The notes beneath the pieces were generated by a model, which was not told the origin of the DNA, ran no database searches, and saw nothing but the letters and a program-made list of their open reading frames with translations. The position numbers and the translations under genes were made by a program. This document shows, in pieces, positions 40,018 through 63,330 of a stretch of 64,000 nt of DNA (the stretch's first letter is position 1; every line of letters begins with the position of its first letter). This stretch comes from Sipunculus nudus. Its lineage: Eukaryota > Annelida > Sipuncula > Golfingiida > Sipunculidae. The stretch lies in assembly GCA_026874595.1 (NCBI GenBank), contig CM049322.1, positions 45,012,840 to 45,076,839 on the forward strand, written 5' to 3'.

Positions 40018-40128
40018 ATGGAAGCCACCATGATCCGTTTGTTATTTCTTATATCTTTAGCCGCTGTAGTTTCAGGGCGGTGCGTGATAGATGACCAGCC
40101 TTTCATGAAAGATGTGGCGCTTGGCAGG
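40018..40128 (+). CDS. Lipocalin gene exon 1: signal peptide and domain 1 N-terminus
   Basis: Encodes [20 protein letters not shown] then RCVIDD, ending phase 0 before GTATGT. The first Cys (residue 30) is the usual N-terminal lipocalin disulfide partner. In-frame Met codons at 39949, 40018 and 40030 compete; the last two give a clean signal peptide. Confidence 0.85.
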
Positions 40129-41910
40129 GTATGTTGCATTAGACTGATATTCTGATGTCGATAACAATAACTGATAAATTAAAATAAAGTCGGTTTGTTT
40201 CAAATGTTAGTCATATACGTGAGGGAGTATTGAGGGTAAAACGTTGTATTGATACAGATAATTTAATTATTGAGTTTATAACCTAAAACTATTGATAGGG
40301 TCTGATAGGGAAAACTGATAGGGTCCAACATTTGCGTTGCGATAGAATGATTTAATAACTGAGATCACATTTTCAATTTAATACCCAAAAACAGTTTTCC
40401 TGAAGTTAAATGAAGAAACCTTGGTTTGGGAAATAGTATGATGCTTTATAAATGGCGGCACAGCTGAAAAAAGCACATATTCATAATATATTTATAACTC
40501 AAATTGTTTCATAAACATGTTGCAGATAAATATAAATTTCTTCTGGTTGCAGTAATATTTTTTTAAGGATGATTTGACTCAGTGCAGTGCACATAAAATT
40601 GAATATTAAAGCCAAGATAGAGAAAGAGGGGGGGGGGGGGTCAGAAAAAGACAGACAGATAGATAGACAGACAAAGACAGTCCTCTGCTTTCACTAGAAG
40701 GTATAATTCATTTTATTTTATAGTTGATGGGACGCTGGTACACGGCTGAACGGCTGACCACATTTACCACGGAGTGGCACGGACATATTCTTGACTTTTA
40801 TGAAGAAAATGGAGTCATGTTCCTCAACATGACTTACCTGTAAGTAAATACACACATACAATCATACACTAACCCGTGAATAAACAACAGTTCATTAAAG
40901 GCACTCATAATGGGCCGGTAAACCTAACTTTGAGTCGTGATACATGCCATATATAGGGAATGTGCTGCAATATTCAACTTTCATCCTGTTGCATTGATAC
41001 ACTATCAGACAAACGAAAATAGACTATAATTGATGTATTTACACGAATTCCTACATGTAACCCCTGCGAGCCAACGCTTGTACTCAAAAACAAAACATCA
41101 TAAGGACAGACCGTTTTTCTGAGGTAAAAAGAAAGGTGGTGTTAAAATGTTGGTGTTGTTAGAAAGTATACTAAACAAAATAAAGATTGGTCTGGTTTAT
41201 GTTAAGTGAAAGCGTGGTTATAAACCTTGAGGCGTAGTCAAAAATTACCCAAATATTTTTATCCTTATAGTGCCATACAGCGTGGTTCTCGTAGGAGGAT
41301 ATAAAGGAACTGACGAGCTTATGCTGCTTGTATACATGTAAACTATTAACTACAGAGGGCCGAAATGGCGCTAATGCGTCCACACACGGAATTTATGAGC
41401 TACCGGAACAAAATAAAATATTATGAGTTATATACCTGTTTACTCGTTATGTATGTAAGAAGTTTTTGGGAACAAATTGATGTTAAATACAGGAACAGTA
41501 AGGAAACTCATAAATATTCATATGATTAGGCTCTGTTACATTTTCCAACATTTAGGGCACAATAATAGGGCACAAATAGTAATGGTTTGACCTAGAAACT
41601 TAATCTTGACATCAAGATAGGTGCTAAGTACAACTCCTAACATACTAAAATGTCAGCAGTACCAATATTCTGGAAGTTACGGGAATTACAGTCTTTCAGC
41701 ATTTAAAATCTGGCTTGTGTTTTAAAATTCGGGGCTAGTGATTGCATAAACATTTCTGAATTTTGGTGAGCTATTTGGTGATGGGTAGCCCTGTCGGCTG
41801 TGTAAGACTGTAAGCACAACCTACATATTTTTTTTTTTATTTTCACGCCTTTTTAATATTTTTTTTTTAGAATTGTCAGCCAGCCCAAAGCAATAGAAGC
41901 CCACCCAATA

Positions 41911-41978
<68 letters not shown>

Positions 41979-42579
41979 ATATTTGTCACATAAACCTGTT
42001 GCTACTGAGTACCGTAGGACTTGAATCTTACGTGCTGTTTAACAAAGACACATGAGCGGTCGAGAAACGTTTCGTTCATGTGACAAATGCATTGTGGGTA
42101 GTACTTATGAATTTAAAGTACTGCTTCATACATTTACCCTCATATAATACGCCTCCGCCCTAGAGTATCAATTAACTCACCTGGGGTGACTGAAGTACCG
42201 GCGTGAGGTAAATGCTCGTTGTTATGGCTATTTTGTCTGGCCAGGTGCTATTTAAAGTGGGGGTATTGATACATATACACATGGGTTAATACTTGCCGAT
42301 TGGTGTTGAAAGATCACTGGGCTCGACCTTGGTCTCTGCCTCAAGCTTGGTCAACAAACGTGGTGTATACGCAAAGGGACAGGGGCCGACATATTTAGCA
42401 AATGCTCTCTCTCTCTCTCTCACTCACTCTCTCTCTCATTTCATACAGTGAATGAGCTAGTGATTTACAATATTGCAAAATTCTGCATTGGTTACAATGA
42501 GTAAACTTGACCCACTTTTCTTTTTACGAATGTGTTGTTTTTTTAACTTTTTGGGGTATATTCTAATGAAATATAATGA

Positions 42580-42638
<59 letters not shown>

Positions 42639-43349
42639 GTATTGTTCACATAGCGTGAATTCAATACATCGCGGTGATAGTGCTCTACCGTATGGGAGCG
42701 TTTATAAATAACTTAAGTACGGTTCGTTTGACTTCATCAGTTTGTGCTACAGATCTGTTTCGTGCGAGCAGCATTCAAGCCGGCTCACTCTTCAGGTACA
42801 AACTGGAGTGATCAGTTATTTAGGTGAAGTTTGTCGTAATAGGTAGGATTTATCTGGGGTTACTAGGATCGGTGAGGCATGTATTTAAAGTTTTTGTTTT
42901 GTTGGTGAATAAGGGTTATTGTACTGTATTAGGACTTTGTAACCTTAAATAATTTTAAGCCGACAATAATAAAGTTAAATATGCAGTCTCAAGATCCCAG
43001 CCAATGTATGCAGGAACAACCAACTGGACTACTAATCCTCTGACCGAACCAACACCTGGGGTCTTGATCAACTTTAAGCAATCCGACAAATCCTCAAGCG
43101 CTCCATAATAGTCCTAATACAGTACAATAAGCCAGGCACCAGTAACCCTTATTCACCAACAAAACAAAAACTTTAAATACATGCCTCACCGAACCTAGTT
43201 ACCCCAGATAAATCCAACCTATTACGACAAACTTCACCCAAATATCTGATCACTCCAGTTTGTACCTGGAGAGTGAGCCGGCTTGAATGCTGCTCTCACG
43301 AAACAGATCTGTAGCACAAACTGATGAAGTCAAACTAACCGTATTTTAG

Positions 43350-43420
<71 letters not shown>

Positions 43421-44097
43421 CTGTGGATTCAGAAAATATTGTGGATTTAAAATTTCGTGGTTTTGACCTTAAACACTATTCGTTAGGTTAAAACTTCCGT
43501 GGACTTATCGTTCCTGGTTATGCATTTATTCAAAGTTAATTTGTAAACAGGCCTGAAAATAAGCCAAAGATTGTAAAAATGGACTAAAAATTTACAGCTT
43601 AAAGACTCTTTAAATTAAATGTCAGATCCATGCAGTCCCCGTGCAAGCGGTGTTGTTTCAATGACACAACAACTAAAATCTCGTTTGACTTTTTCTGAAT
43701 CGTTGGTGAAAATATTTAGATAAATCTCGATAGATATCTCAGGGATAATTCCACGTGAGTCCATCAAATGAAGTCATGCATGACCAGATTAATGAGAGCA
43801 AGTCTCGGCTCTCGAAATTGTTTCGTTCAGAAGAAACCCCGTTTCTGCTCCGGTGGGGACCAGTGCACCTCCGGAACGAGGCCACAGGTAAGCTGGGACT
43901 CCGCTCAAAATTGTGCTCAGCTGACCGTGACTCATCACTCAGCCCGGGGACTAACTAGATTAAGTCTGCCGCACGGTTTAGCTCTTATTGTTTAGTCTAC
44001 TGTTGTTTATTCAATGAAAATATGACATTACTCTAACAAACAATATAATACAACGAGCAGTGCAAGATGATCTTTAACTTCGACGTTTAGCGAGATA

Positions 44098-44151
<54 letters not shown>

Positions 44152-44516
44152 AAGTCCACACCCACCGGTATAAGATAGTGCAGACGCACTTTCAAACCGT
44201 CACAAGTACAAGTTATAAGTCCGACACTGCTGAAATCTTGATTTTGTCACTCAACCTAAGTATTTTTTTTTTGTTATTTATAGGCTACATATCGCTTTCT
44301 GTATATTTTACTGACCAATACCACTGAAAGCATGGACAGTGACAGCGGGCAATAACGATGTCGTAATTCAATGTGCACCCAGGGACGACGGACTTTCAAA
44401 AATTTGGCTTTCAAACTTAGTAATCGTTCGGTTTTTAAATTCGTGGATAAAAGTCACCCATGAATTCCACGAAAACAAAAACCCAACGAACAATTCTAAA
44501 ATAAGATGTATATATA

Positions 44517-44581
<65 letters not shown>

Positions 44582-45519
44582 AACATGAGCGGTGTGCATA
44601 CTATGGTCTATGCGTGTATACTTTGGAGGAAGTGAATATAATCAGCAGATAAGTAATTAAATGTTATACTATGTAAGAAGATAGGACACATAGAATAATG
44701 TGCTCCAATGCATGACCAGAGTGTTTCTAGCCTATTAAAATTGATCAAACTTAGGTATCCCAAAACTACCACGTTACGTACCACATAGCGTGAAATGTGA
44801 TTTGTATAAATTAGATAGATTGTTTTAATATAGTTATATAGAGAATGTATGAAATGTGCATTTTATGAATTTTGTAACACATAACATGATGGCCGAGGAA
44901 AGTGAGAGGATGGAAAACATTCTTGTTATTACAGCCACCAGTAAACCTTTGATCTTTAACTTTACAGGGCATTTAACGCTAAATGTGACAGAACAAGGCA
45001 GTATGAAGTCAGGATTTCATACGAAAACCGCACCGAAATGGCGCTCTACTCAAACGGGAAACAGGGTGAGTGAAAACCATGTTTTTGTTAAGTAATTTAA
45101 TAGGGCTAAAGAGCGCCCCGGGCGCTTAACTTTATTTTGGGTGTGTGACATGTCCACTACCTAAAGAGCTCTTGTCCCAAGTTTACAACTAAGCAATATA
45201 TACTAGACCTTGTCAGATCGCTGAATAAATGACCATCCCTGATATAGGATGCAATACCTTTGGTGATATTTTAAGGAAATTTTACAACTGAACAAACCTC
45301 CAAGCAAGCGTTATCGTCAGCTTATAATGCGCACTAAAAGGTTCAAACATGTAAGTATGTTGAAGGCCAAGAAACCAGGGTCACCAGAGACAGAGACGGT
45401 TATTTCAAATTTCAAGGCTGAACAATATCAGTTAATTTCAAGTCTGCATATGTAGGTTTGTTTTATCTAATATTAATATTTTGAATGAATTGTGAATGAA
45501 AATATGACGATATATATAC

Positions 45520-45590
<71 letters not shown>

Positions 45591-48500
45591 TCTCAGTCAC
45601 TTGTGAAATCAGTGGGCGGGCGATGGTTTTTTACATAGTTCATACGCTCAGGGAACATCACGATGATAATAGAACAGTTTTGCTAAAGAGCTGATTGGTA
45701 TTTATATTTTATTTAAAGGAGTGGAAAATGTCTACTGAATATCAAAATGAAAATATTTGATGCCTGGAGGGTGTGTGTGTGTGTGTGTGTCGGGGGGGGG
45801 GGGGTCGTCAAAATACCTTACACATACATATATGGGCCTATGTGTTATTTATATACCACAGTTGTGGCCCTGTTTACACCTGGAGCTAGCTACGATGGGT
45901 ACCTGATTCTTTATTACTGTCCTATGAGCGGCATGACAGAAGGAATGTGTACGAAACCAATCATAGAAACGGTGAGCAGAGAAAAAGAAATGTCAGACGC
46001 CGACTTCGCGGCAGCCACGGAACTCCGAGACAGCCTTTGTCAGCCTTCTGCGGTGTACACCTACACGCCGGCCACCTACAACAGTAAGTAAACTACAGAA
46101 CGCATACCTTCGCCAAAATGTAAAATAAAGTGGCTGGCTTTTTTTTGTTCGAGAGGGATTCAAATTCGCGATATTCGCGAAATGTTATTATCGTAAAAGT
46201 AAAATATGCCTCATGTAAATACAGGTGACAAGTTATTTATTCTACTACTAGATACTCATTGGCATCTCATATACCTTATCCATAAACGTTGAAGGACAAA
46301 TATTATAGAATATAACCTAAATGCTGTGTTATCCGTAAACCAAACATTGACCTTATACATAATATTATATGTTTTGTATTATCTTCTAAGAAAGAACAAA
46401 TTGGCACTCCTATAGTTTCCCATGTTCCCTTGTTTTCTTTTTTTCCTCATATCGATAAGATTGTGCACACAAATTAAATTATAAATAAAACAACATATAT
46501 GCTCTGTATAGATAATGTTTAGTACGATCGCGTAAATGGAATCTACTCGAATCACAGAAAAAGGACAATATTGAGTCAACCACGGCATTCAAAAATGAAT
46601 AATTTCTTCCAAAATCCTGTACGTTCTTGCTAACGAAAACGGTGTTTAAAAAAATGAGAGTTACTAATTTATCAACTAGCACTAATCACCAGTGGCAATT
46701 AAACAACAATTACCGTTTGCTAAATAAAGTCAATGAAGCCTTCTTCGGTTGTCAGCTGCATAGTCTTTTGCGATATGACATACAGAACAAAAAATTACGG
46801 AGAAAAAAAAACAAAAAAACGCCAGGGTAGTATTTATTAATGTCACTTTCATTGCTTTTATTTCCGACATATTTTTTAATTTTTTTTTCTCTTAGATATT
46901 TTCCCTTAATTCCAAGTTTATCGAAATTTGGTAGGCATATTATACAAGTTTTTAGCCGGAATAATAAGGTAGGACGTAATCACGTGATTAAAACGTTCGA
47001 CTCCAGATGTGGTCCTCGGATCGATCTAGGTCTGAACCTCAAAGGCGAAAATGACGAAATCTCGGTACAGATGTGAATTAAACTGAACATTTAATAATTA
47101 TAATAATAATAATAATAATAATAACATCATCAACAACGACAACAGCAACGATAGTAACGATTAATACAGTTTGGAGTGAAAAAATAGAATAGGAAAATAA
47201 AAAATGCATTAATAACTAAATAAATAATATACAAACTAGATGACCTGAGGTCACGCGCTTGCCGGAAATGATGTAAAGTTAGTCAGATGAATGAGCAGTG
47301 TCAAAGTGAAAGAAAATAATCCATAATTTGTGAAGAAAGAACCAATATTAACAAAGTTCTAAAGAAAATGAGATTTTGATATATTTTGATCACCTTGACC
47401 TTGACCTTTGACTTATTGAATAATAAACATAGGACTTCCAGATATCATCACGATATATGACAAGTGTTATTTACAAAACGATTCCTGCAAAATTGTGGCC
47501 AGTAGAATGCTACATGTGAGACGCAAGAACCAGGAAGCAGGCGAAATTGAGGACAACTGACAAACAGACAAACATACTGACAAACTGACCCAAGATTGAG
47601 AACAGACGACTGAATCATTTTATGAAGAAACCTCAGAGGAAGATAATAAGCTATAGTTTATGTAAATGAGGTTTATAGTTTTGGAGATATGGCCAAAAAA
47701 TGATATGTTGTGCAAGTTAGAGTGCACCGCCCCCTGGCGGCCAATTCTGGAAAATGAAAAATCTGTTTCGAGATATTAGTGTAAGACATAAGATGTAATA
47801 GTTTTAAAAGGATTCTTTCAAAACTGTGGCCTGTAGAATGCTATATGTGAGACGCAAGAACCAGCAAGCAAGCGGATTTGAGGACAACTGAGAAACAGAC
47901 GGACACACAGACAGTGACACAAGATTGAGACCAGATGACTAAACGAGTTCATGAAGAAGACTTAGAGGAAAAAAAATAAACTATAGTTTTTGTAATTGAG
48001 GCTTATAATTTTGGAGATATTGCCAAAACATGATATGTTGGAGAGGTTTGCATCCAGCGCCCCCTAGCGGCCAAATTTAAAAAATGAAAAATTGGTTTCG
48101 AGATAATAGTGTAGGACTTACAATATGTCAGTTTCAAAAAGATTCCTGTAAAACTGTGGCCTCCAGGGCAAGATTACTGAAATCTCGAAATATATCGTTT
48201 GACGAGATATTATACGAGATATTGCGAGACTCTTAATAGAATCTTGTAGTACTAGGTGAATGCTACCTGCAGCAAAAAACTGAGAAACAGACGGACACTC
48301 AAGATTGAGTCAAAATGACTACAGCAGGATTCAGAAACGACTCAGAGGATGAAAATAAGCTATAGTTTATGTAATTGAGGCTCACAGTTTTGGAGATATG
48401 GCCAAACCATGATATGTTGAGGAGGTTTGCATACAGCGCCACCTAGCGGCCGCGTTCAGAAAATGGAAAAACAATTTGGAGATAATAGTGTAGGACTTAC

Positions 48501-51500
48501 TATATGTCAGTTTCAAAAAGATTCCTGCAAAACTGTGACCTCCAGGGCAAGATTACTGAAATCTCGAAATATCTCGTTTGACGAAATATTGTACGAGATA
48601 TCGCGAGACTTTTAATAAAATCTTGCAGTACTTGTTAAATGCTACCTGATGCAAAAAACTAGACCTCTCTAGCTTTAAAACTGACAAAGTTAGAAAAATA
48701 AGACCCCTTATTTCAGAATATCATGACTTTTTCCCGCAAATGCGTAACCATGGTTACGGCAAATTTGAAAGAGCTACACACCAGAAGAAAGGCCTGGGAA
48801 TGACGTTTAAAATGAGCTATGTTTGAAGAAGATACCCCTAATAGTAACAAAGATATGAAGAAAAAACCGTTTTGTATACTTTTGATGACCTTGACCTTGA
48901 CCTTTGACCTATATTGCCCAAAAACAATCGGCTTCCTGGGATTTTGATTTTTGACTAGCTGTGTGAGTTTGAAAGCAATTCCTGTAAAATTGTGGCCTGT
49001 AGAATTCCACAGACAAACAAACAAACTTACAAACAGATAGACATACGCTACTGACCAACCAACTTGCCGAAATCGAAGATTTCCGGCAAGCAACAAACAA
49101 ACAAACAGACAGACAGACAGACATACGCGACTAACCAACCAACTTGCCGAAATCGAACATTTCCGGCAAGCAACAAACAGACAAACAGACATCCGCGACT
49201 GACCAACCTGCTTGCAGAAATCGAAGATTTCCGGCAAGCAACAAACAAACACCCACCTGTAAGAAAGTGACATACAAGTTTAAATGGAAGACATTTTTAT
49301 ATATTACTAATGGTATACAAAAGATGATACTATCAACAAAGCAAGCGAACAAGCTGTTTAGTGCTGAATCGATGATTTATGGCTTATTTTTAAGTCAGTA
49401 GACGTCAGATTACGGAACGGGCTCCTTCAGTGCTTAACATCAGGTTATGATTTTTGGTTTATGTCAATATACGTATGTAAAACTTAATATATTGGATAAT
49501 TAATAATAATACATCATTATCGCCGTATCGTTCTCCCTATCAATATCAGATGACGCCTGAGCGTCTGTTTTTAGTTTAATAAACAAGCACTTGGTTCGGA
49601 GCTTTATTTTGATACTAGTACCTCAAAATTATCCTGAAAATCACATATAAATATGCGTAATGCCTAATTAACTTTAATAATTAGTAACATAATGCATGAC
49701 TTATTTAAATATCTATTATAACTCTCCTCATGACATGACTTTTCGCCCTCAACTGGCCAATTCTTGCACCATTTAAGTTGAAAGAAAAATTCATCGTCCT
49801 CACTAGAAGCAATATTCCAGTTCCGGATGTTTGAATTTCAATTGATTTTAGCGTGACCAACGACCTTGATATTCTACTCACGCGTCCCCTGTAACGGTTG
49901 ACCGCAGGCACTGGGTCCTACATTCAACACTGTTTTCCACCCTGATACACATGGCTGCGAGGTCATGCCTGGTTGAAGATGACCTGCTAAGGATACTTGG
50001 TTTATTCTAGTGTAGGGGGGTTATGCTAGCGCCATCATTCAACCAATTCAAAGCTGACGATACCATTCTGTCTGATTAATTCAAGTCAACATTACAGGAA
50101 CAAGATTTTTTTTTTTAATTGAGAAAAGTCCAGTATATTTATTCGTTATATAGAAGATGATTTAGTGCAATAAACCTGGATATAAGTTAATACTGAAGTA
50201 GAAAGGGGAATATCATATGTAGACCAACAAACTTCACATGAAGCTTTCTAAAATACATGTTGTTAATAAATTGCCCCGTTAAAAATATAACTTGCCTGTT
50301 CAGATTAGAAAATATTGAGTATTCTTGAATCAATTGCTTCACCTATTTTTCATAAATTTAACTATGTTTCTGAATGTTTAAATCAGGTTTCACAATCTGG
50401 GTAATATTTTTTTTTTTTAATGATTAACTCTACTATAAAATGAAATACATATTCCATGATAATTCAGGGAGTGGATAAAACTATATGCTACATGGTTGGG
50501 GGGGGGGGAGTCCCCCGTGTTTTGAGCGATTGTTTGACTTTGGATTGATGTTCTCGCCTTTCCCCGGTATATAAGGCAGATGGCTTGGCTTGGGAGACTT
50601 AATGCAAAACTGGCTATATATACTGACTTAAAAGATTGACTGGGATACAATTAAGTTCAGTCGTATCATAGGAATATAAACTAGATACCACTATAGTAGT
50701 TAATTTATCCGTCCCTTCGAGCTTCTGTACATTGTTTTGCAATCGCGGCCATTTTTGGCAATGATCTGTGTTTACCCTTTTTTCTCTATCGCTTATGCGT
50801 ATGGAATATTTGTAATTGTCTAAAGGCGTTATTTGCCGAGGAATTTGGTTTGCCCAGAATATCCCCATGGTATACCCTGTCGGATGAAGGGGGGAGGGGG
50901 TGAGCCTACATGGAAAACAAGCAGCTCCCTCACTAATTCTAATACCGTGAAACCCCTCTCAAGCGGACAGTCAATGGACCATACGATTTTTCCGTAATAG
51001 CAGGGTGGTCGCCCCAGAGTGGATCGGGCCTTAGAGAGGGTCTGCATTTATTTGAGGCTGTTGTATGAATTATTGCTTGGGTCATTTTCTGTGTTATTTC
51101 ATGGGTAATGTACCTTCCAACGTTTACTTAGAGTGGCAGGACATACTCGCTGATACACCGAGTGTTGTTCCACGCATTTCTCATATGTCCGTCAAAATGT
51201 TTAATTAATCAGACTCTTCGTTATCTTGAAAGAAGCATGGATTAACATAAGCAGTTTCTAACATCTCTATTAATCCTGGTTATGTTCGCGATGGGAAAGT
51301 AAATAAAGGCTCATAAATTGAAAGAGCATTCCACATCCCTTGTGATTTTTTTTTTCGCGTGAATCATATCCATGAAACGCATGGTATACCATCGGTGATT
51401 GGTTGATGTCGGGGTCACGTTATCATTCATAATGTTGTAACTTCATTTAAAAAGGGAAAACATGTGAACAACTCCAATATATTACGAGTTTATCATTTAG

Positions 51501-54500
51501 AGAAATGAATAACCATGTCGATCATCAAACATGGTAAACGTCTCTTAACGCCTTTGATCTGAAACCTGACTCGGTCTCCTGTCCCTTGGGAGGTCATGAC
51601 CCGTGACTGCTGTATCACCTGACAAATCCACGGCAATTTGGATATCCGTTAGCTGGGGTGATTTTAACTGTTGGGAGGACGAAAAGTGTCCGTTGTCCTG
51701 AATAGCAGGCTGCCCGCCCTAGAGGGGTTCTTCAAGCAGTAAAAGTAGCTTTAACCAAAATTGTACGTTACGCGGGGTGTCCGCCGTAGAGGGGTGTCTG
51801 CGGGTTTCTCTATAATGAACAGGCACTCATATTGAAGTATTGTAAGAAATTTGTGTTCTTGTTACCCAGGGGTGTAATCTGAAATCTATTTCAGATAACC
51901 CCCTGTTAGTCTAAGGCGATGGTAATATGAATATACCTCGTGTCTTCAAGATTATTTATAATATTTTTGTAATTGATGACTAGCCTAAAAATCATATGTT
52001 TTTTTACACGATAATATATAAAGTACAAATCATATTTTCTTTTACTAGGCTTCATTGATTCATAAATACATACAACACACTGTGCTCAATGTCGTTTATC
52101 AAAGTGAAATTTGACTGGCAAGAAAGAACCATTCCCTCGTGGAAGGGGTTTAGGTCAATTTGAAAAAAAAATAATTACAAGAGAATAAGTAGATCCCCAA
52201 ACTGATATTTGTTTATTCACTTTAAAAACTAGTAACGCAGCTCGGAGAATGTTAAGTTTTCATTAAATTCAGAATCTATTTCTGGCGTGAGGAAATCTGT
52301 ATTTTATCGTCAAACGCGATAAATAATGGTTCATGTGCTTATTTTTGAGAAAAAAATATACTTATATTGACTTTACTTCAATCGTTTTATTTCTCTGTTT
52401 TCTACTCTAGAATGTCTGAAGAATTCAGTTCCAAATGGTGAGTAAAATGTACTCTTTTTTCCAAAAATCATATAAAATAGTTTGTTTTATTTAATGCAGT
52501 GATGGTTTGCCCAATGAATCATTTATATGGACAATAGTGTGTCGGTTTAAGTACCAGTGCCATCAATGTATATTAGATTGTGTTTTCTGCTGTGTCCGCA
52601 GCATTATCTAAATTCATTATGCGAATATTGTGGATTTAACAAAAGATTTACTCCTCTAAATAATTCGTGTTGGCAGTTGTTTCATGATCTTTACATTAGA
52701 GATCAAAACAAACAGAAACACGAAATTGTTAGACTCCACGACAAAGCCCATATCTTCACTCATTCAAACAAGCACACCAATAATCATAGAGACAAGAGTT
52801 AATAAACAACCTACTGGTTGCATATGAATTTTACGTTATGAAATATGTGTATTATCTGCATCAGTAAGATAGACTCTGAAACAAAATCAAGTCTGTCCAT
52901 GGAATTAAAATCCCTGCTAATATCTCTGAATCCCTGGTCACGATTAGATGTTTTCTCTTATAACTTACGGATGAGGCGCGGTGACCAGCAAGGCATTCCT
53001 CCGGCTTCTACTTAAAAGACACGGGTGTATTGGCCACAAAACACTCCACAGACAGGTACCTTCAGACCACTCTCAGACTACTGAATGCAAAGGCCGTGAC
53101 AAACGGCCTCGTTTCATGCAATATTGAATACCCCTCGCTTGTATGATCCAGCCATGGGAACGATGTCCACGTGCAGTAGTAACCGGGCCTGAATAACACA
53201 AGAATATAAACTGAGAGGAAATATATGCTTCTCTCCTTTCAAATAGTCCGACACGAGAATGGAATTCAACAGAAGTATAGACTCAGTTAAGCTGGCGGTA
53301 TACCTTAAACAAAATTAAGTTATATTAAAAAAAAAATTATAATAATAAAATAAATTGTTAACAATTTGTTGTGAACAACTTTCTGTTTCAGAGGATGCCT
53401 GCGATGAGAAATTCATTCCATATCTTAGCACATTTGATCCACTGAAGGTGAGTTTACGCTGTGTGTAAATCAACAAATACATTTATATAGCAATATTTCA
53501 TCCAATGAGTATCAAAGAGTTCCTTACAATGTATATGTCATACATAACAATAAACACAATATAAATAACATATATACATACACATATAAATATATATATA
53601 TATTTATATACGAAATTGATTAGTTACTTTGCTGCTCTATCAGACTGTAACCTGACTGTCTGAAAATTATGGATTTCTATCGTCATTCGACAGACGGTTA
53701 TCGATAGTTTTGTGTTCTTGTGAAACGGGCAAAAAATATCGTATTTAAGTGCACGGATAGAAATTCCCTAATTCTATCACGAGTATTCGTTGCTATGAAA
53801 AATTATTGACGTTAAAAGCCGAACAACTAGTCTATAGAATTGCTGGCAGGCCGTAGGCGATCCTTGAATGGCCGTTGAGCTGACCTTGGCCAAGTTCTCC
53901 GGGGTTGTTTTTGATACAACTGCCGCGAATTAATGTTTATTGCCTTATGATTTATACGCAAAAGAAAATACATTTTATGATACCTGAAAATCAAAGACAA
54001 ACAGTATATAACCTTATACAAACTAATATCAGATCTTTCATATTGTCTGCATATAGGTCACAAAATTTTTTACCAGTTTTTCTTTGGTCCTCGTAAAATT
54101 TTTAAGTTTAAGATTCAGCATGCATATTAACAAATAAATTGTATAATGGATATACTATTTTGAGTTTACCGTATGGTAAGATCGCAAGCATGAAATCCGC
54201 TCGAAAAACAACGAAAAAGTGGAGATCGCGAAAAATTATCCTCGCGAATATGAAGCCTTCCGCAGTATATTGGGTTATATTTTTGTAGGTTATGGGTCGC
54301 TGGTATTTGAAGACGTGGTTTTTCCCAGAAGGAGAAGTTCCTTCTGCAAACATTATTGGTTTAGCTGTTGATGTCGATAGAAAAGGGTCAAATTACAACG
54401 TCCAATATTATTACACGTAAGCCGCATTACATTTTAATTAATTACACACCCGCCAGCAGGCAAGTTACTGTATTTTCCCATGGATAGTGTGTCACCTAGC

Positions 54501-54649
54501 AAATAACGTAAGGAACATATTCTGAAAATGTTCAGTGATCTAGAATTTTACAAAGGATATTTTTTTTCAGTAAACTCTCATTGTTAAGATTATAAGAGAA
54601 GGGCTTAATCAAGTATAGAATTTGATTTGATTCTATAGATTACGGAAGT

Positions 54650-54702
<53 letters not shown>

Positions 54703-56115
54703 CAAGGTACAGTGAAACCCAGGGCTGCGGACACCCGTCTTGGGCGGACACCCCGCCTAACGAGCATTTTTACTACTATAAGAACCACTCTTGGGCGGAC
54801 ACCCCGCTATTCAAGACAAGGGACTCTTTTTGTCCGCCCGATGGCTAAAATCACCCCGGTTAACGGACACCTAAGTACGGTGGCTGATTTAGGACACAGA
54901 AAAAAAAATATTTATCTCGAGATCTCGATTTCCTAAAAATTTTTTTTGCTTCATACAATTTTTTTTATGCTTCCTAAATTTTTTTTTTTTGCTTCCTAAC
55001 ATTTTTTTTTTTTTGCTTCCTAAAAATTTTTTTTTTTGCTTCCTAAAATTTTTTTTTTGCGAAATTCTATGTCGAGATCACGAGATAAATAATTTTTTTC
55101 TGTGTCCTAAATCAGCCACCGTACCTAAGCGGCCGCCCCGATCGAAATACTTTAAAATTGCAAATATGGTCTACTTCCCGTATGCCTTATATGACTTTAA
55201 AGTTCTTATGGTTTAGGCATATTAATTGCTATGACTATAAGACCGGAGCTAGTTTTACTCAATTTACCTTATTTTTCAGCTGGCACATTTATTCATATAT
55301 CCTTCCATTAATTGCAGTGCCAACAAAATGACGGAATTCCAGTTGTTTCTATTGTGCCGAACTTTAAGTGAAGCAACATATTCATTCTGAATCCGTTCCA
55401 CATTAATCTATCATAGGCCCAGGAGCGAGGATAATGACGTATGTGTTACACATCCGGACGATACAAGTCACGGGTCATGACCTCTCGCCTGGGTCGGGGG
55501 CTCAGCGATATCAACCAATCCCCGATTCTTTAACATTTGTATCAGGGAAATTAGTCCCACCTACCAATCATAAGGCATGACATCATGCATTTATTTGTCA
55601 TTTTTGCTCACGCTCCCGAAAGATGTATAACAATACTTGTACGAGAAATTTATTTATTCCATAGACGATTTTTTTTTAAATATCACCGAAAGAGTGAGTA
55701 ATCAATAATTTTACGGCCCAGTCGAGACGGGTAAGTAATGTCAATGTCAGTCAATGTTAGAATATTATTTTTTTTCCACAAGTTATGACGATAACGTTCT
55801 AGTTAGTTTTGAAAGCTTCATTCCAAAAATAAAAAAAAATAAAAGAAAACAACAAATTTCATTCACATATAACATATATGTAAGATCAAAGATTCGATGA
55901 AAAATGCCGGCATTCATGATGGATTAAATCCCACACTAGGGCCTCCGACATGTGGCCGCAGCCGGACCTCCTGGGGCCGATCCCCTCTTGGGCGGACACC
56001 CCGCTATAACGGACAAACCGTCCGGTCCCGTGACTGTCCGCCGCAGAGGGGTTTCACTGTAATACATATATAAATTCAATACAGCATAGTGAAAGTGCTC
56101 TACCATATATAAAGT

Positions 56116-56166
<51 letters not shown>

Positions 56167-57288
56167 TTATCTTTTTATTTTAGGGAAGGACAGGGATGCA
56201 GTAAGCTTCCTATTGCTATCCTGAAATCGACGCCAACGTACGGCAAATTGATGCAGCTTGGCGAGTTCGGAAACGGTATGCACCAGCTATTGTCAAACAT
56301 AGACCTTTATAATTTAGATTTTATTGAAATGAATAAGTTGCTTGACCTTTGGGTAATTATGGAGATTATATCTTAATAATTGTATTATTCAACAGTTATT
56401 TTTTGTTATGTATCCCTGCTCTTCATTCTCAAAGAATAATTTGGCGATGAATGAATTGCCCACTAGACTCGCTGGTTTTGGTTAGCTAAGGAAGGCTACA
56501 TGAGTGGTAAAACCACGTGAAAGATACTAGTTTCAAAAGGTTGAATCAACCTATAAAAACTAAAGTTATTGCAAAAATATTAAGTATATTGTTAATTACA
56601 TCTGTATTGACTTATGCACGGGACATATGATATAAAGATTTGAAGATTCTAATTGTGGTATTTAAAAGGAATTAAGAAGCCAAAAAATATGAATTTTAAG
56701 TTAACAAACAGGAGGAAACAATTTTTGAATGGGTAATCTGAAACCGTATAAAGTACTCTGAAATCGATTTCAAGTTACCGGGGGTAATCTTATATAATAT
56801 TCTGATCACCCCCGGTAAATTGAAATGGAGTATAATCTAATTAATACAACATGACACAGGGAAGTTTTCTCGAGGCCGATCGCATTAACAATCTTGATTT
56901 CAGCGGGCCGAAGGTGTATCAGTTCCCCTCAAATTCCAGGGCCTGTTTCCCAAACTAGCCTGCCAATGATCCAGCGCCGTTCCCTTTTAATCTATCACGC
57001 AACATTGTTTTTTATAAATGTTTCTTAATTTTTTTTTTCAGGAACAAGGGGTTTCGTGTACGACACGGACTACACAAACTGGCTGATTTTTTGGTCATGC
57101 CAGGAACCTTTCGAAGGAATCTGTGAGAAACCTCTTGTCGAAATTTGGAGCCGAAGTCCATTCCTGTCACCCGTTATCAAGATGAAGGCAAAGCACGCAC
57201 TAAAAGACTTATGTGGCCCAACTGACGAATTCAGCTTTCCCTCTGGAATTTACGAACGTAAATATATACATTTAAAAATATGTCGAAG

Positions 57289-57367
<79 letters not shown>

Positions 57368-58864
57368 GGTCTAACCTGTCTAATGCGACCACCCACGGGA
57401 CTGGGCACAAGTGGTCGTATTAGACAGGTTCTGAAAATTTAGTAACTGCACAAATTTAAATGTCTTGTATGCATATTGGTAGGCCTGCCACGTTTACACT
57501 TTTAAATGACTCCGTTTTGATTAATTTCTGTCAACGTTTACAGAACGACAGACCGTTTACACGAAAGGCAATGATACACTCTGTATGTCGATCCGCTTTA
57601 CAACGTCGGTAAATCTGTAATACCGATATATCAGAAAATATGATTTGTAGACGCGGTAACGAATGGCGTATTCAGGTGGACTCTTGTTTGAAAACTTAAT
57701 GAGGGTTTACTATTATAAACAAGAATCTTAGCCTTTGTTTTTTAATTATACAGGATTTCTTTACATAAGGTGTATACAGGCGTGCCACCGGTATTAAATA
57801 TGACATCGCCCTTGTAATATGCTATCTTTATTTACCGCCGTTGTAACCACCGAAAATGAATGAACCCACGTGTTGCCGCCAAATTTGCATTAAAAGTTAA
57901 GTTAATTGACCATCAAATGTCGATTTTATCGGCGTTTTTACTCCTTCGTGCGCACGAGCGCTGGTTAAGGCGAAGCAAAAAATAGGGGTAAACATGTACC
58001 CGAATTGGTAACCATGGTTACGGTGACGACACATCATGTCATTTGTTCTTTTCAACTCATTAGCATAGCTCTGGAGGGCAATTCTTCCAAATATTGCCGA
58101 CTGGCTACCGTGCATACAAGCGGGCCATAAATATGGCCTTACGGAAAATGCAAATTTTCAGGCCGTAGAGCAATTTCGAACGATCTCAAATCAGTTCTTA
58201 GAACGATTATGGCTGTCAGAAATTCTCGGCGAAGGCCATGTTCAAAGCCAGGGAGCAGCTGCTTATTTCTCTAGTGAAAATGTTTTTAATACTAGTAACC
58301 ATGCGCTTTCTATAAATCCCGCGTTAAAAAATGCGTTGTCAGCTACAAATCCCCGTATGAACGTTCAAAATTGTTTGCCGACGTCACACGTTACTAACAT
58401 CATTTGCTTCATATGAACATCATATATTTTCCACTCTTTGGAATAACGCCTTTTATAACACACTGAATAGATCTAAGACAAACCAGGGAGGCACAGGTCA
58501 AAGATTAACTTCGGGACACCATTATGTCTGGTCGTGTCAGCCAATCACGTGGCTTAGCCGGGGCTCCGGGTCCAGGGTCGGCCCAGGATCCTCCCAAACA
58601 AACCACCAGTAAAACAAACAGCGGTGCAAGTGACCGCAACTACACGCATGGTCAATCAACCGACCAGTCCGCGCTGGTCAGTGAGTTGTGCAATGGGTGT
58701 CCGCATTAGGCAGGTCAGTATGTCACTTTGGTCAGGAAAATACTGCCAGTAATCTGGATTTATTTATAGATAATATAATGGAATTTCGAAAGGGACTGAT
58801 ATCAAGTGGTCGTGATAGTGAGTTGCCCGCATTACACAGGTGTTCGTTTAGACACGTTGGCCTG

Positions 58865-58915
<51 letters not shown>

Positions 58916-58918
58916 TAC

Positions 58919-58957
<39 letters not shown>

Positions 58958-60435
58958 TGATAGGATTTGGTTTAAAAAAATATATTTATTTATTGATTAT
59001 TTTATGCCATTTCTCTATTACCATGGAATCTGTGGTATACTTGTACCCAAAATATAGACCTCAGCAAATAGTCTGACATGTACACCGGTATTCATAATGA
59101 AACCATCAATCCATCCGCAACCCAGGTTGACTTGCCGTCAGACGATTGTTGCCGGCGCCAGGTTCCGTTTTGATGCTGTTGGTTACTTTGTATTTGTGTA
59201 TCTCTGGCAGGATAAGATTCTGTCATGTTTATATATAAAGACAAGCCCACTTATTCTTATATCGGTGGTGCATGCATAAATTATGATAATAACCGGTATG
59301 TGACATTATGCGGGCTTCAACATCGATGTCCTTTTGAGTCATAGAAGAAGCATTATATCTCAAATTATATTAAATAAATCGTCAATAAAAAGGAAACAGA
59401 ATCTTTTATGATTTTTTTTACTGCACAACGGCTTATCAAATTACGTTTATGTGCACCTGACAATTTATTTCCTGTAAATTTTCTGCCGCATGCTGCAATA
59501 ACTGATAAAATCCGACTTGCCAACAGAAAGAGTCGTACCGTCTGGGTCATGAGGTCAGATGTCTGGAAATATGCGGCACAGTTATAACGTTATGCGTGGA
59601 CAAACTTTTTTACTAGATAATAATTTCCCCGACTATTTCGCCTTATTTTCTGAATATCTTATTAATGACTCAAAGTTCCATGATCGTCTTTATGACAGGA
59701 TTGTTGGGGAGCGGGCATCGTCATGCCATTGTCAACGTTCTGAAGTTTCGCCGCGATTGAGGTTTTGGGCCGGGTATCTCCTCCAGTGCTCACAAAACCT
59801 CCAGCTATTCGTGGACCCTAAAAGGGAATTTACGGTCGTAAGCAACATTTAGAGCTCGTGCCTCATGTCATCTCTGCAAAGTCACGGAGGTGTAAACCAC
59901 GGCCTTGCAAAGGCCAGGAGTTCATTATGTATGACATGTGATGGCAAACTTGCACTTGTTAACGTACGAAGAAACACAATGACGTGGATTACCGTGGTAT
60001 CTTAAGTCGTAAATTAGCTAAGTGACGGGGAGTGATCTGCATGCATCACTGCATTGCCTGCCGCACACAGAGGGGAGATGTGACTGTTTGATACTCCTGA
60101 CCGATTACAGGCTCTTGACCTCGTTGATCGCCGTGTCGGCGCCTGATGTGATATTAACAGGGATCTGGTATCATTGCCAAGGGTTCCAAGCAAGACAATA
60201 AGCGGGATTATGACAATATTCCATGATATTAAACGGTCAGGTTTTATAGGAAATGGTTTGGGATTTCAGATTTATGTGACAATAAACGGGATTTTCTATT
60301 AACCGATATGACACAAAGTGGGGTCGACTGTAATAGTTTTAAGTCGATTATGCAAAAATGCAATCCATTTAATTGAATTTGAAAAAAGACCATTCATCGA
60401 TTTAATCGATTAATTGGCACAACCAGTATGGCTAT

Positions 60436-60489
<54 letters not shown>

Positions 60490-61727
60490 AACATACGTGA
60501 ATCGTATGAGGAAATAATAATGTCCTTATTGTTATAATTTAATTATTTAAAGTCACATTTAAAGGACAGATTTCATGTCATAAAAATACACTTTGGCATG
60601 GGTACAATTAATCAGAGTATCCGAGACTTTGGCTATTTGTTACGTGATGGCACAGCACACATAGGATTCAAATGTCGTCTGTTAAAGTTTGGCTTTAGGT
60701 TTTATTTAGTCAGTTGTCACTGTCACATTATTAACTAATAATAACGTGCACCCTTGATCAACGTTCATGCTTGGAAGTGACATCTAGTGTTCAAACTATA
60801 AACGATTGGACTATATAATATATATCTCGTTTGGAATACACATACACGTGAATATTAACAAAAACAAACGCTTCCTGCTTATGCGTTACTGCTGTATTCG
60901 TTCAGCACACTTATTCATACACTAAGACAGTGAACGCTTAAAGTGAAATCGTGTTCATTTAAACACCTCGGAAATGATTTAAAGTTGTTAAACCAATTGA
61001 GAGATTAACATTGCAGATTATTTTTAAAAGATCACATCAATCCTGTTATTAACAATTTTAAGTTACTACAGTGAATGTTTCTAAGAGATATTCACATAGA
61101 TTTCTCCCAATATTAAATATATGTAAAAACTCCCGATATTTTAACTACAGTTTAATTTAGTTTACTTTTAGTTTAAATGATTAATGTATTGTAAGAATAT
61201 TCAAACACTCTACAAATATAACTTTTTTTACATTTCTTTAATATAATTATATATATTATTTTTTTTGCAGACTGCCCTGAACCGGAAGAAGAAAAGAAAG
61301 GTAAGTTTCTATAAACAATGAAAATTATCACCAGCAATTTATTACACCAAACCTCCACTATACATATTGTTCTCATAATGATAGTCTGACATCATTATCA
61401 TATTTAAAACAAGAATCAGTGTTTTTATATTACACACCCATTTATCATAACGAAACGACACATACCTGTCAACGCATTGTTTAATATAATTATTCATATA
61501 GTAATATGGACTTTGATTTACTCTTCAGACGTTTTAATCTTCATGTAATTACAATATCAAATGATTTTAAACCACTGTTTTGTTTTCTGCAATATTCAGC
61601 TGCCTATAAATTATATAAATATAGAGGAATAAATTTTTATCAGACATGTTTACTATTATGCAGTGTTCTGCAACATGTTTTCGTACTATCCGGTATGACA
61701 ATCTGAATTCAATATAATAATAATAAT

Positions 61728-61798
<71 letters not shown>

Positions 61799-62470
61799 TA
61801 TTTAAGGAGTTGACCCTTTTTCTGTTTTAGACACATCAGGAGCATGTTGTAAGTGTACGGTTTTATTCACTTTACCATGCAAGCTAATGTATAATTAATT
61901 TAATAATTTTCTCGTATGTATGTTGTCTCATTAGCTTTATTTGCCTCGGATAGTTACACCATATCAAACAATCGGCTGTAATTGTCCAGAAAAGGCACAG
62001 TATTAAGAGAAAAAAAGTATATCTTAAATTTTATTACTGTATAAAAGTCTCTGAAGTATTGGCAGAAAGATATATACTGTAATTGGCATCATATTCGTGA
62101 GATTTTCGGTTTTCACCAATACAGGGTTTCGCGAGGGTTTCATTTTCGCGATTTACCATACAGTAACTTACACATCCGTTGTAACATAACCATTATTAAT
62201 TCAGTCAGCTAACATTCACTTAGAGTCTTAGCAATTGTATTAGGAGTAAAGGGAACATCAGACAATTGTTAATCAGTCATGCAATAGTGGCAAATATACA
62301 GGAGCATTGATATTGTTTGAATTATCGTTCTTGGATTTTCGGGTAAAGCTACGATTCCTTTTACGCGGTTGCGGTCGCTGTATACGGTTGCAGCATGGCC
62401 AATACCTTTTTTGCGTTCGCCAATGCGGATAATAACGGTGTTTGTATATGTGATATAATATTTAATATTG

Positions 62471-62505
<35 letters not shown>

Positions 62506-63330
62506 TCCCATATTCACAATAGTTTAAATCGATGCTTTTAGGCGGAAAACGTTTTTCCTCGTGGCTTATACCGATAATCATGCTATAATCCTGGGGAAAC
62601 CCCTATGTGACGTACATAACTCAGTGGGATTCCTCGTAAGACCTCATCCGTTTAAATTTTCTTTTGTCGGATCTTGTCGCTACATGATCCGACAAAATTT
62701 TGTCGGATAACGGGCCCGATAAGTACCGCGACCGCAACCGAGTAAAAGGAATCTGTCCTTCATAATATCATATGTTCGACTCTATCCGCAACCGCGAACC
62801 TACCACGGCCACAACGCGTAAAAGGAATCTTAGCTTTAAAGGTAACAAAATGTATGTAATTCTGAAGGCTACCGGTATTATATAAGTGAGATATCATTGA
62901 GGTTATATTATTATAAAATATTTAATCACTGTTCACCCGTGCTGAGGTTGTCTTATTTACGAAGGTTTTATTTTCGCGATAATAACCCCATCCCGAATGT
63001 CGGGAATTGGAAATCCTCGCAAGCATAAAAGAAAATCGCAGTCTGTGGAAGAGCATACTGCCACCCGAGTCTGAATACAGGACCATGAAGTCAATGTCCG
63101 AGTACCTGAAATATTGGACTCGTATCCGGACTTGAGTTCATAACCTTACTTAGTTTATAATTCAATCCCAATAATTTTGCTAATTATAACAAAAAGGAAT
63201 ATCCTAATAAATTATCCAGTGACTTATCACCATTAAAATAGAAGCTGTATCTCATATTTTAGGGGCAACATCTATCGGGCTGGCTCAAGTTATTGCTTTG
63301 ACAACGTACGCAGTCTACCGGGTCTGGTGA
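40018..63330 (+). CDS. Double-lipocalin secreted/anchored protein, 12 exons
   Basis: Spliced model: 40018-40128, 40724-40839, 44968-45065, 45862-46083, 52411-52437, 53392-53447, 54289-54416, 56184-56275, 57042-57257, 61271-61300, 61831-61848, 63263-63330. All introns are GT..AG with matching phases; 393 residues ending in TGA. Seen: signal peptide (about residues 1-28); lipocalin 1 with GRWYTAE at 40-46 and [10 protein letters not shown] ending at Cys128; lipocalin 2 with GRWYLKT at 213-219 and [13 protein letters not shown] ending at Cys303. These match the family GxW and TDYxxY signatures. Sequons NMT and NRT lie in domain 1. The last 20 or so residues are hydrophobic after TSGAC, as in a GPI signal or short anchor. 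Lipocalins carry small hydrophobic ligands in an eight-stranded barrel; the ligand here is unknown. Start could also be the second Met at 40030, whose GCCACCATG context is an ideal Kozak match. Confidence 0.87.
40724..40839 (+). CDS. Lipocalin gene exon 2: domain 1 GxW strand
   Basis: Phase 0 to 2, acceptor TTATAG, donor [19 protein letters not shown] is the lipocalin first-strand signature; the NMT sequon lies near the end. Confidence 0.88.
41913..41974. repeat. (TA)n microsatellite in lipocalin intron 2
   Basis: About 31 uninterrupted TA units. Confidence 0.95.
42700..43357. mobile_element. Large palindrome (fold-back element) in lipocalin intron 2
   Basis: Left arm about 42700-42946 is the inverted copy of right arm about 43110-43357. 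Shared words include TACGGTT, GACTTCATCAGTTTGTGC, TACAGATCTGTTTCG and CACCAACAAAACAAAAACTT. The central spacer is about 165 bases. (TA)n arrays flank it on both sides (42581-42633, 43350-43420). The right arm has a 12-base or so insertion. No coding capacity. Confidence 0.85.
44102..44151. repeat. (GA)n microsatellite
   Basis: About 25 uninterrupted GA units; the Arg-Glu open frame here is an artefact. Confidence 0.95.
44968..45065 (+). CDS. Lipocalin gene exon 3: domain 1 middle strands
   Basis: Phase 2 to 1, acceptor TTACAG, donor G|GTGAGT. Read in the correct phase it gives [20 protein letters not shown] with an NRT sequon. The longer open frame over these bases (44856-45095) is in the wrong phase. 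Confidence 0.8.
45511..45587. repeat. (TA)n microsatellite in lipocalin intron 3
   Basis: About 77 bases of TA with a GTGTA break near the left end. Further (TA)n arrays not listed separately: 2207-2258, 44525-44580, 54653-54701, 56119-56163, 60439-60486, 61730-61800, 62472-62502, 63904-63930. Confidence 0.95.
45862..46083 (+). CDS. Lipocalin gene exon 4: domain 1 TDY-like strand and helix
   Basis: Phase 1 to 1, acceptor CCACAG, donor [17 protein letters not shown] matches the second lipocalin signature. It is followed by [17 protein letters not shown] and the C-terminal helix ending LRDSLC. Three cysteines offer disulfide partners for the barrel. Confidence 0.87.
47310..48930. repeat. Tandem array of 330-380 bp units in lipocalin intron 4
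   Basis: Units begin CTATAGTTTATGTAATTGAG at about 47650, 47981 and 48360. Each holds a CGCCCCCT-GCGGCC segment, CAAAACTGTGGCCT and ACTGAGAAACAGACGGACAC. Outer segments with CACCTTGACCTTGACCTTTG recur at about 47390 and 48890. Open frames across it have no domain. Confidence 0.78.
48990..49260. repeat. Hairpin minisatellite
   Basis: Three units of CTTGC(C/A)GAAATCGAA(G/C)ATTTCCGGCAAG separated by ACAAACAGACAGACATACGC-like spacers, period about 70-83. Each unit is nearly self-complementary. The 186-codon minus-strand frame over it (48713-49273) is generated by the repeat. Confidence 0.8.
50940..51830. mobile_element. Degenerate GTGAAACCC-type element
   Basis: Starts CCGTGAAACCCCTCTCAAGC with GCGGACAGT, and near 51785-51820 has CGCCGTAGAGGGGTGTCTGC. 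These words match the ends of the element at 54708-56061, but the right terminus is not clear. Confidence 0.45.
52411..52437 (+). CDS. Lipocalin gene exon 5: 27-nt inter-domain microexon
   Basis: Acceptor CTCTAG, donor G|GTGAGT, phases 1 to 1, encodes KCLKNSVPN. It joins the two lipocalin domains and adds one Cys. Skipping it would keep the frame. Confidence 0.7.
53392..53447 (+). CDS. Lipocalin gene exon 6: domain 2 N-terminus
   Basis: Phase 1 to 0, acceptor TTTCAG, donor [25 protein letters not shown] is the counterpart of the mature start in exon 1 ([17 protein letters not shown]), including the Cys and the phase-0 end. Confidence 0.82.
54289..54416 (+). CDS. Lipocalin gene exon 7: domain 2 GxW strand
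   Basis: Phase 0 to 2, acceptor TTGTAG, donor [24 protein letters not shown] repeats the GRWY signature of exon 2 at the same exon position. Confidence 0.88.
54708..56061. mobile_element. 1.35-kb TIR element in lipocalin intron 7
   Basis: TA|CAGTGAAACCC...GGCGGACACC on the left and, inverted, TA|CAGTGAAACCCCTCTGCGGCGG on the right. The TA target duplication and CAGTGAAACC ends are of a kind common among animal DNA transposons with TA sites. The interior has no transposase and hosts a second element. Confidence 0.72.
54876..55123. mobile_element. 248-bp MITE nested in the TIR element
   Basis: Perfect inverted ends TACGGTGGCTGATTTAGGAC (similarity continues through ACAGAAAAA) flanked by a direct CCTAAG duplication at 54870-54875 and 55124-55129. 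The core is a tandem of TTTTTTTTGCTTCCTAAAA words. Confidence 0.85.
56184..56275 (+). CDS. Lipocalin gene exon 8: domain 2 middle strands
   Basis: Phase 2 to 1, acceptor TTTTAG, donor [24 protein letters not shown] supplies the mid-barrel Cys equivalent to exon 3. Confidence 0.82.
57042..57257 (+). CDS. Lipocalin gene exon 9: domain 2 TDY strand and helix
   Basis: Phase 1 to 1, acceptor TTTCAG, donor [22 protein letters not shown] is a textbook lipocalin second motif. It is followed by [15 protein letters not shown] and a helix ending in LC, matching exon 4 cysteine for cysteine. Confidence 0.88.
57292..57365. repeat. (TA)n microsatellite in lipocalin intron 9
   Basis: About 74 bases of TA starting 35 bases after the exon 9 donor. 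Confidence 0.95.
57367..58865. mobile_element. Possible TIR element with CTGTCTAATGCGACC end
   Basis: Left end GGTCTAACCTGTCTAATGCGACC with an immediate inverted echo GGTCGTATTAGACAGGTT. On the right are inverted echoes CCGCATTAGGCAGGTC (58700) and CCGCATTACACAGG (58828). Exact limits are uncertain; both edges abut (TA)n arrays. Confidence 0.45.
58866..58952. repeat. Interrupted (TA)n microsatellite
   Basis: Two TA arrays separated by CACATATATACATTTT. Confidence 0.92.
61271..61300 (+). CDS. Lipocalin gene exon 10: acidic 30-nt microexon
   Basis: Acceptor TTGCAG, donor G|GTAAGT, phases 1 to 1, encodes [11 protein letters not shown] charged spacer between domain 2 and the tail; it can be skipped in frame. 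Confidence 0.7.
61831..61848 (+). CDS. Lipocalin gene exon 11: 18-nt microexon
   Basis: Acceptor TTTTAG, donor T|GTAAGT, phases 1 to 1, encodes DTSGAC, which would hold a small-residue (Ser-Gly-Ala) cleavage and attachment site if the protein is GPI-anchored. Confidence 0.62.
62345..62837. mobile_element. About 490-bp TIR element in lipocalin intron 11
   Basis: Left AAGCTACGATTCCTTTTACG and, inverted, right AAGCTAAGATTCCTTTTACG, each followed by GTTGCGG/GTTGTGG-like sequence, with TA(A) on both flanks. It contains a (TA)n array at 62472 and a GATCCGACAAAATTTTGTCGG inner palindrome. Non-coding, non-autonomous. Confidence 0.75.
63263..63330 (+). CDS. Lipocalin gene exon 12: hydrophobic C-terminus and stop
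   Basis: Acceptor TTTTAG, phase 1 in, encodes [20 protein letters not shown] then VW and TGA. A terminal hydrophobic segment with no cytoplasmic tail to speak of fits a GPI signal; a tail-anchored or weak membrane helix is the alternative. Confidence 0.72.

Follow-up and report, generated by a model that had tools for sequence, protein, structure and literature searches.

Lipocalins are mostly single, soluble carriers; Lazarillo has one lipocalin domain, and polycalin carries a glycosylphosphatidylinositol (GPI) anchor. Here we describe a gene for a probable two-domain, surface-attached lipocalin in a 64,000-nucleotide stretch of the Sipunculus nudus genome (the window, C17:45012840-45076839; C17 is 61.1 Mb of a genome of 1.43 Gb in 153 contigs). 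In the excerpts of the literature cited here and below, Lazarillo of the grasshopper is a GPI-linked lipocalin (PMC8530192, PMC4374295), that is, a lipocalin held on the cell surface by GPI, and polycalin of the lepidopteran midgut contains about 15 lipocalin-like domains in one polypeptide (PMC10145054; the term GPI is absent from that paper). The window protein would probably share the surface attachment with Lazarillo, and it shares the presence of more than one lipocalin-type domain with polycalin. We read the locus, with a probability of about 0.65, as one gene, a member of a large family, whose product enters the secretory pathway and has two lipocalin-type domains, derived from an old five-exon duplication, and a C-terminal membrane-attachment signal (most likely GPI).

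Twelve exons of the window gene were rejoined from the raw sequence; each of the 11 introns is of the GT-AG type, the exon phases are consistent, no stop interrupts the frame, and translation from the ATG at 40018 gives 393 residues. A first-pass annotation of this DNA had joined twelve exons in phase to a protein of this length, with GRWY at 40-43 and 213-216 and with Cys128 and Cys303; our re-derivation agrees with it on each of these. The protein contains 13 cysteines, three N-x-S/T sites, a hydrophobic N-terminus and a hydrophobic last exon. We modeled paralogs from C17:45.40-45.60 Mb, 0.3-0.5 Mb from the window gene, in a region that also contains degraded pieces with stops. Four of them (gB, gD, gF and gG) have complete open frames of 386-390 residues and the same 12 exons and intron phases as the window gene. 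For a further paralog, gH, exons 5-12 only were read, and the model of exon 7 is off the frame by one base; gH is omitted from the protein comparisons, so that ‘five genes’ refers to the window gene, gB, gD, gF and gG. The features of the window gene (window coordinates; lengths in nucleotides, nt) are as follows.

40018..40128, + strand: exon 1; signal peptide and first cysteine of domain 1 (Cys22); earlier ATG at 40018, likely start at 40030
40724..40839, + strand: exon 2; GRWY of domain 1; 116 nt in all five genes
44968..45065, + strand: exon 3; middle of domain 1, Cys82; 98 nt in all five genes
45862..46083, + strand: exon 4; end part of domain 1, Cys128, Cys138 and Cys168; 222 nt in all five genes
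52411..52437, + strand: exon 5; last cysteine of domain 1 (Cys184); 27 nt in all five genes
53392..53447, + strand: exon 6; linker and first cysteine of domain 2 (Cys195); matches the end of exon 1; 56 nt in all five genes
54289..54416, + strand: exon 7; GRWY of domain 2; 128 nt in all five genes
56184..56275, + strand: exon 8; middle of domain 2, Cys258; 92 nt in four of the five genes, 89 in gB
57042..57257, + strand: exon 9; DTDY motif of domain 2, Cys303, Cys311 and Cys341; 216 nt in all five genes
61271..61300, + strand: exon 10; last cysteine of domain 2 (Cys357) and acidic stalk; 30 nt
61831..61848, + strand: exon 11; 18 nt, coding for small residues (TSGAC), a candidate region for GPI attachment
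63263..63330, + strand: exon 12; hydrophobic C-terminal tail and stop
63494..63499, + strand: AATAAA, candidate polyadenylation signal, 164 bases 3' of the stop

The two halves of the protein are homologous, and their exon structure, duplication and cysteine pattern are evident in the sequence. Introns 1-5 have phases 0, 2, 1, 1 and 1, and introns 6-10 have the identical series; exons 2-5 (116, 98, 222 and 27 nt) correspond in order and phase to exons 7-10 (128, 92, 216 and 30 nt). The cysteines of domain 1 are at positions 22, 82, 128, 138, 168 and 184, and those of domain 2 at 195, 258, 303, 311, 341 and 357. The halves align with each other by BLASTP (E 2e-8, 22% identity), by profile comparison (hhalign, E 3.5e-7, probability 93) and by Smith-Waterman (score 86, with a maximum of 56 among 2000 shuffles). 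A unit of five exons, duplicated long ago, would then be the source of the two lipocalin-type domains.

Domain 2 is recognized as a lipocalin. It scores 26.1 bits against the Pfam Lipocalin model (PF00061; cut-off 23) in the full protein and, when this half is searched alone, 22.9 bits with the tail and 23.5 without it; at an E-value threshold of 10 it matches the model in all five genes (best 2.2e-6). The top PDB matches of a domain 2 profile are lipocalins (Q83, E 1.7e-5; insecticyanin, E 3.6e-5). Domain 1 is the weaker part of the case, as it matches PF00061 in none of the five genes at the same threshold; a single domain 1 sequence finds no lipocalin in the PDB and two unrelated matches (E 0.37 and 2). 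Its profile gives nine PDB matches up to E 10, eight of them lipocalins (best 0.009), although a single protein, sandercyanin, accounts in its various forms for seven of the eight; Per a 4, which we take to be a lipocalin, is also among the profile matches. The membership of domain 1 in the lipocalins is thus a probable one that derives mainly from its homology to domain 2, together with weak PDB profile matches. The two lipocalin domains of the first-pass annotation therefore stand as two homologous domains, the second of which is a lipocalin by Pfam and the first of which is without a Pfam match; because the Pfam model misses domain 1 in all five genes, families of this type may be under-annotated.

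The motifs follow a similar division. GRW, at 40 and 213 in the window protein, is invariant in both domains of all five genes, so the lipocalin GxW motif, which marks the beginning of the barrel, is present in each. TDY-type strands had been proposed for both domains; domain 2 has one, its DTD being invariant in the five genes (DTDY in four, DTDF in gD), and domain 1 has TPGASYDGY in place of the TDY motif. Both domains also have an invariant SR dipeptide (S127 R128 in A1, S128 R129 in A2), which presumably includes the Arg of the third conserved lipocalin region.

Comparison of the five genes supports the gene model. Exons 2, 3, 4, 5, 6, 7, 9 and 11 are identical in length in all five (116, 98, 222, 27, 56, 128, 216 and 18 nt), an agreement that is beyond chance, and the same 12 cysteines are common to all. 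The signal peptide proposed in the first-pass annotation is upheld by hydropathy, the measure used here, with a hydrophobic N-terminus in every one of the five (12-residue Kyte-Doolittle mean of 2.7 in the window gene). Because the starts of gB, gD, gF and gG align with Met5 of the window protein, and because of the sequence context of the Met5 ATG at 40030 (GCCACCATG), we place the likely start at Met5; the protein would then probably have 389 residues and not 393. An extra, apparently unpaired cysteine (Cys35 or Cys36) is located just before the domain 1 GRWY in gB, gD, gF and gG, where the window gene has Leu.

The ratio of nonsynonymous to synonymous substitution rates (dN/dS) is 0.14-0.35 in the six pairs among gB, gD, gF and gG, which points to purifying selection among these four paralogs. 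This conclusion is weakened by three of the six pairs (all with gB), in which dS is 1.7-2.7, that is, near saturation; between the window gene and the four paralogs dS is saturated and identity is 38-40%.

Nearly all counted pairs of the family are on C17, a contig the size of a chromosome. A genome search with the window protein gave 105 exon-sized matches, including the window gene's own, with 103 on C17 and two on C10; an exon 4 query identified 54 places and an exon 9 query 45, some of them fragments or with stops. We merged these by hand into 95 places on C17 (49 for domain 1, 46 for domain 2). From the exon 4 rows we removed second fragments (C17:10718076 and 45711474), two places labeled as domain 2 (42606543 and 42684835), a weak match (42914813, E 9.9e-4) and the place on C10. 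The exon 9 rows lost a second fragment (11052368) and likewise the place on C10. The whole-protein search contributed one more place for domain 1 (55920643) and three for domain 2 (42606519, 42684808 and 42999953). A pair was defined as domain 1 followed by domain 2 on the same strand and less than 25 kb apart. On C17 there are 36 such ordered pairs, and 23 places are single. When the labels were shuffled 10,000 times, 15.1 pairs resulted on average and never more than 25. The matches of the whole-protein search alone give 30 pairs among 80 places (25 or fewer in shuffles). With one pair on C10 the genome total is 37; this count includes gH and pairs that are not intact, and some counted places contain in-frame stops (e.g., 45613536, 46054522, 10230640 and 45421838).

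We built a tree from 26 distinct exon peptides; its midpoint root separates the 13 that come from domain 1 and the 13 that come from domain 2 (printed support 0.79 and 1.0), and the labels were taken from the best-matching query, which favors this split. Because domain 1 and domain 2 peptides fall on opposite sides of the root, the domain fusion seems to predate the spread of the family. Two loci at C17:21.03 Mb and C17:21.32 Mb (L006 and L007) have identical exon 9 peptides and different downstream spacing, as a recent duplication or an assembly duplicate might. In a six-frame search of the genome, the only two places above the Pfam lipocalin cut-off (L001 and L002, C7:31803073-31808140) look, by their translation, like fatty-acid-binding-protein exons and not like members of this family.

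The C-terminal exons are repeated in the paralogs. A CP-containing phase 1-1 counterpart of exon 10 is found in gB, gD, gF, gG and gH (18-24 nt, compared with 30 in the window gene), followed in the same five paralogs by one 18-nt exon that codes for SGSSF, SGSPS, SGSAA, NGSAA or TGSAA and by a terminal exon in which about 20 residues, most of them hydrophobic, precede the stop. In about 1.5 kb downstream of each of eight further loci, exon 10 was recovered in seven, exon 11 or a 45-nt variant of it in five, and the terminal exon in three (L006, L013 and L014); at L049 (C17:19.46 Mb) we found exon 10 and a hydrophobic terminal exon and no clear 18-nt exon. A small-residue attachment site followed by a hydrophobic tail is, as a rule of thumb, the layout of a GPI signal. 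By that rule the C-terminus, with its small-residue exon 11 and hydrophobic exon 12, would have this layout in the window gene and its paralogs, and GPI attachment is likely.

Several properties of the tails weigh against such a signal. Their hydropathy is moderate: the 14-residue mean is 1.7 for the window gene, while that of gG is 1.37, and interior stretches reach 1.42 in gG, above its own tail, and 1.46 in gF; the last exon of gG is below the hydropathy filter that we used for terminal exons and was read independently of it. Charged or polar residues occur in the tail of the window protein (Arg, third from the end), gG (His and Lys), gD (His), gB (Lys) and gF (a terminal Lys), and exon 12 of the paralogs averages only 18% identity to that of the window gene. 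The hydrophobic C-terminus of the first-pass annotation is thus borne out as a conserved tail of GPI-signal layout, and the likely GPI anchor is qualified by the charged residues and modest hydropathy.

The same exons can be read in two other ways. In a type I membrane protein, exon 12 would form one helix across the membrane and leave next to nothing on the cytoplasmic side; the last 18-22 residues are long enough to span a membrane, and the window tail ends in AVYRVW, which places a positive residue close to the inner end. We consider this unlikely while giving it some weight, as the small-residue, 18-nt exon 11 precedes the tail in the window gene and all five paralogs, as a GPI site would be expected to do, and the modest hydropathy and polar residues of the tails fit a membrane helix poorly. 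Less likely again is a soluble, secreted two-domain carrier whose last two exons are mis-called or used in some transcripts only. The relative on C10 would suit it, having exon 10 and no recognizable exon 12 in the 9 kb read (an unspliced reading from exon 10 gives a short, soluble end), as would L012, where none of exons 10, 11 and 12 was recognized in 1.5 kb downstream; the C10 gene also counts against a general attachment signal. However, exons 11 and 12 are in the right phase in gB, gD, gF, gG, gH, L013 and L014, and exon 12 is present also at L006 and L049.

That two adjacent single-domain lipocalin genes were wrongly joined would account for the 6.3-kb length of intron 4 and for the 23 unpaired places among the 95 on C17. 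We rejected this possibility, which we regard as very improbable, because exon 6 begins mid-codon, without a Met or signal peptide of its own, and the domains are paired in order, far above the expectation from shuffled labels; in all five genes the reading frame continues from exon 5 into exon 6, and the paralogs repeat the complete 12-exon gene. One gene for a two-domain protein with a probable GPI signal is the reading that we prefer.

As we envisage it, the signal peptide would direct the protein to the endoplasmic reticulum, each half would fold into a disulfide-braced barrel, and a GPI anchor would replace the tail at the small-residue exon; two barrels on the outer cell surface could then bind small hydrophobic ligands, as suggested by the lipocalin family, and divergence among the copies would give different ligand ranges. 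Given the many copies and the purifying selection among the four paralogs, the task may well be a diversified one, for example uptake, sequestration or sensing. A more specific proposal, which we advance tentatively and with more doubt than confidence, is that S. nudus has a large and diversified repertoire of GPI-anchored two-barrel lipocalins, derived from one ancestral duplicated gene, that serve as surface receptors or sinks for many hydrophobic molecules; its candidate ligands would be chemical cues, diet or microbial lipids and pigments, and the layout would be like that of receptor gene families and not of soluble carriers. Dozens of anchored two-domain pairs on one contig would shift the view of lipocalins towards surface reception or capture.

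Elsewhere in the window, tblastn detected no lipocalin exon beyond the 12; tRNA and Rfam searches gave no matches, and an NCBIfam search gave no families. Intron 4 contains a 330-bp unit in about two copies (window 47474-48162) and a 68-80-bp unit in two to three copies (49013-49251). A partial, possible C-type lectin domain on the - strand (window 22557-22922) is below the Pfam cut-off (19.1 bits, cut-off 22.6; E 0.0023). Haemocyanin and big-defensin models gave no match in the genome, in searches that lacked a working positive control. The assembly apparently includes bacterial contigs (C60, C61, C62, C66, C72, C74, C75, C89 and C123), possibly from associates or contaminants; eight contigs contain full-length cytochrome oxidase subunit I frames with almost equal scores. 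One of these frames, that on C60, was translated, and its identity to public bacteria does not exceed 59% (the best is an Oligoflexia metagenome-assembled genome); the gene on C123 is presumably a cbb3-type oxidase.

Among known lipocalins, vertebrate RBP4 is single-domain and secreted, with three disulfides. Domain 2 matches it weakly in the PDB (best E 0.0037), and Cys258, Cys303, Cys311 and Cys341, that is, four of the six cysteines of domain 2, align with RBP4 cysteines, each domain of the window protein having six; Q83 and the insect bilin-binding lipocalins outscore RBP4 with the domain 2 profile. Lazarillo has a single domain, whereas the window protein has two and belongs to a large family; two domains are also far from the about 15 lipocalin-like domains of polycalin. 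Apolipoprotein D is likewise a lipocalin encoded by several exons, and it has the GxWY motif and a TDY-type motif, the latter found in the window protein in domain 2; it is described as having a single domain and two disulfides, the coding exons numbering four in chordates (PMC8530192), whereas the window protein has six cysteines per domain. Two lipocalin-type domains, as in the window protein, are present in yeast Svf1, which is Golgi/cytosolic (PMC10583516), and in the tick double lipocalins (PMC9779611), and a bacterial protein likewise has lipocalin-like domains (PMC6219842); the excerpts on these three describe no anchored, exon-duplicated family. Oyster shell proteins with lipocalin/fatty-acid-binding domains have a role that the excerpt calls open (PMC10543319).

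The first-pass annotation called the tandem, anchored form unusual; this holds for the combination, as we found no anchored two-domain lipocalin family in the open-access literature searched, and not for its parts, as anchored and multi-domain lipocalins are each known separately. The proteins of the mouse Mup and teleost ApoD clusters are single-domain and secreted, whereas those described here have two domains and a candidate attachment signal. Local lipocalin gene expansion is what the family on C17 shares with the mouse Mup cluster (PMC6381713) and the teleost ApoD clusters (PMC6325677).

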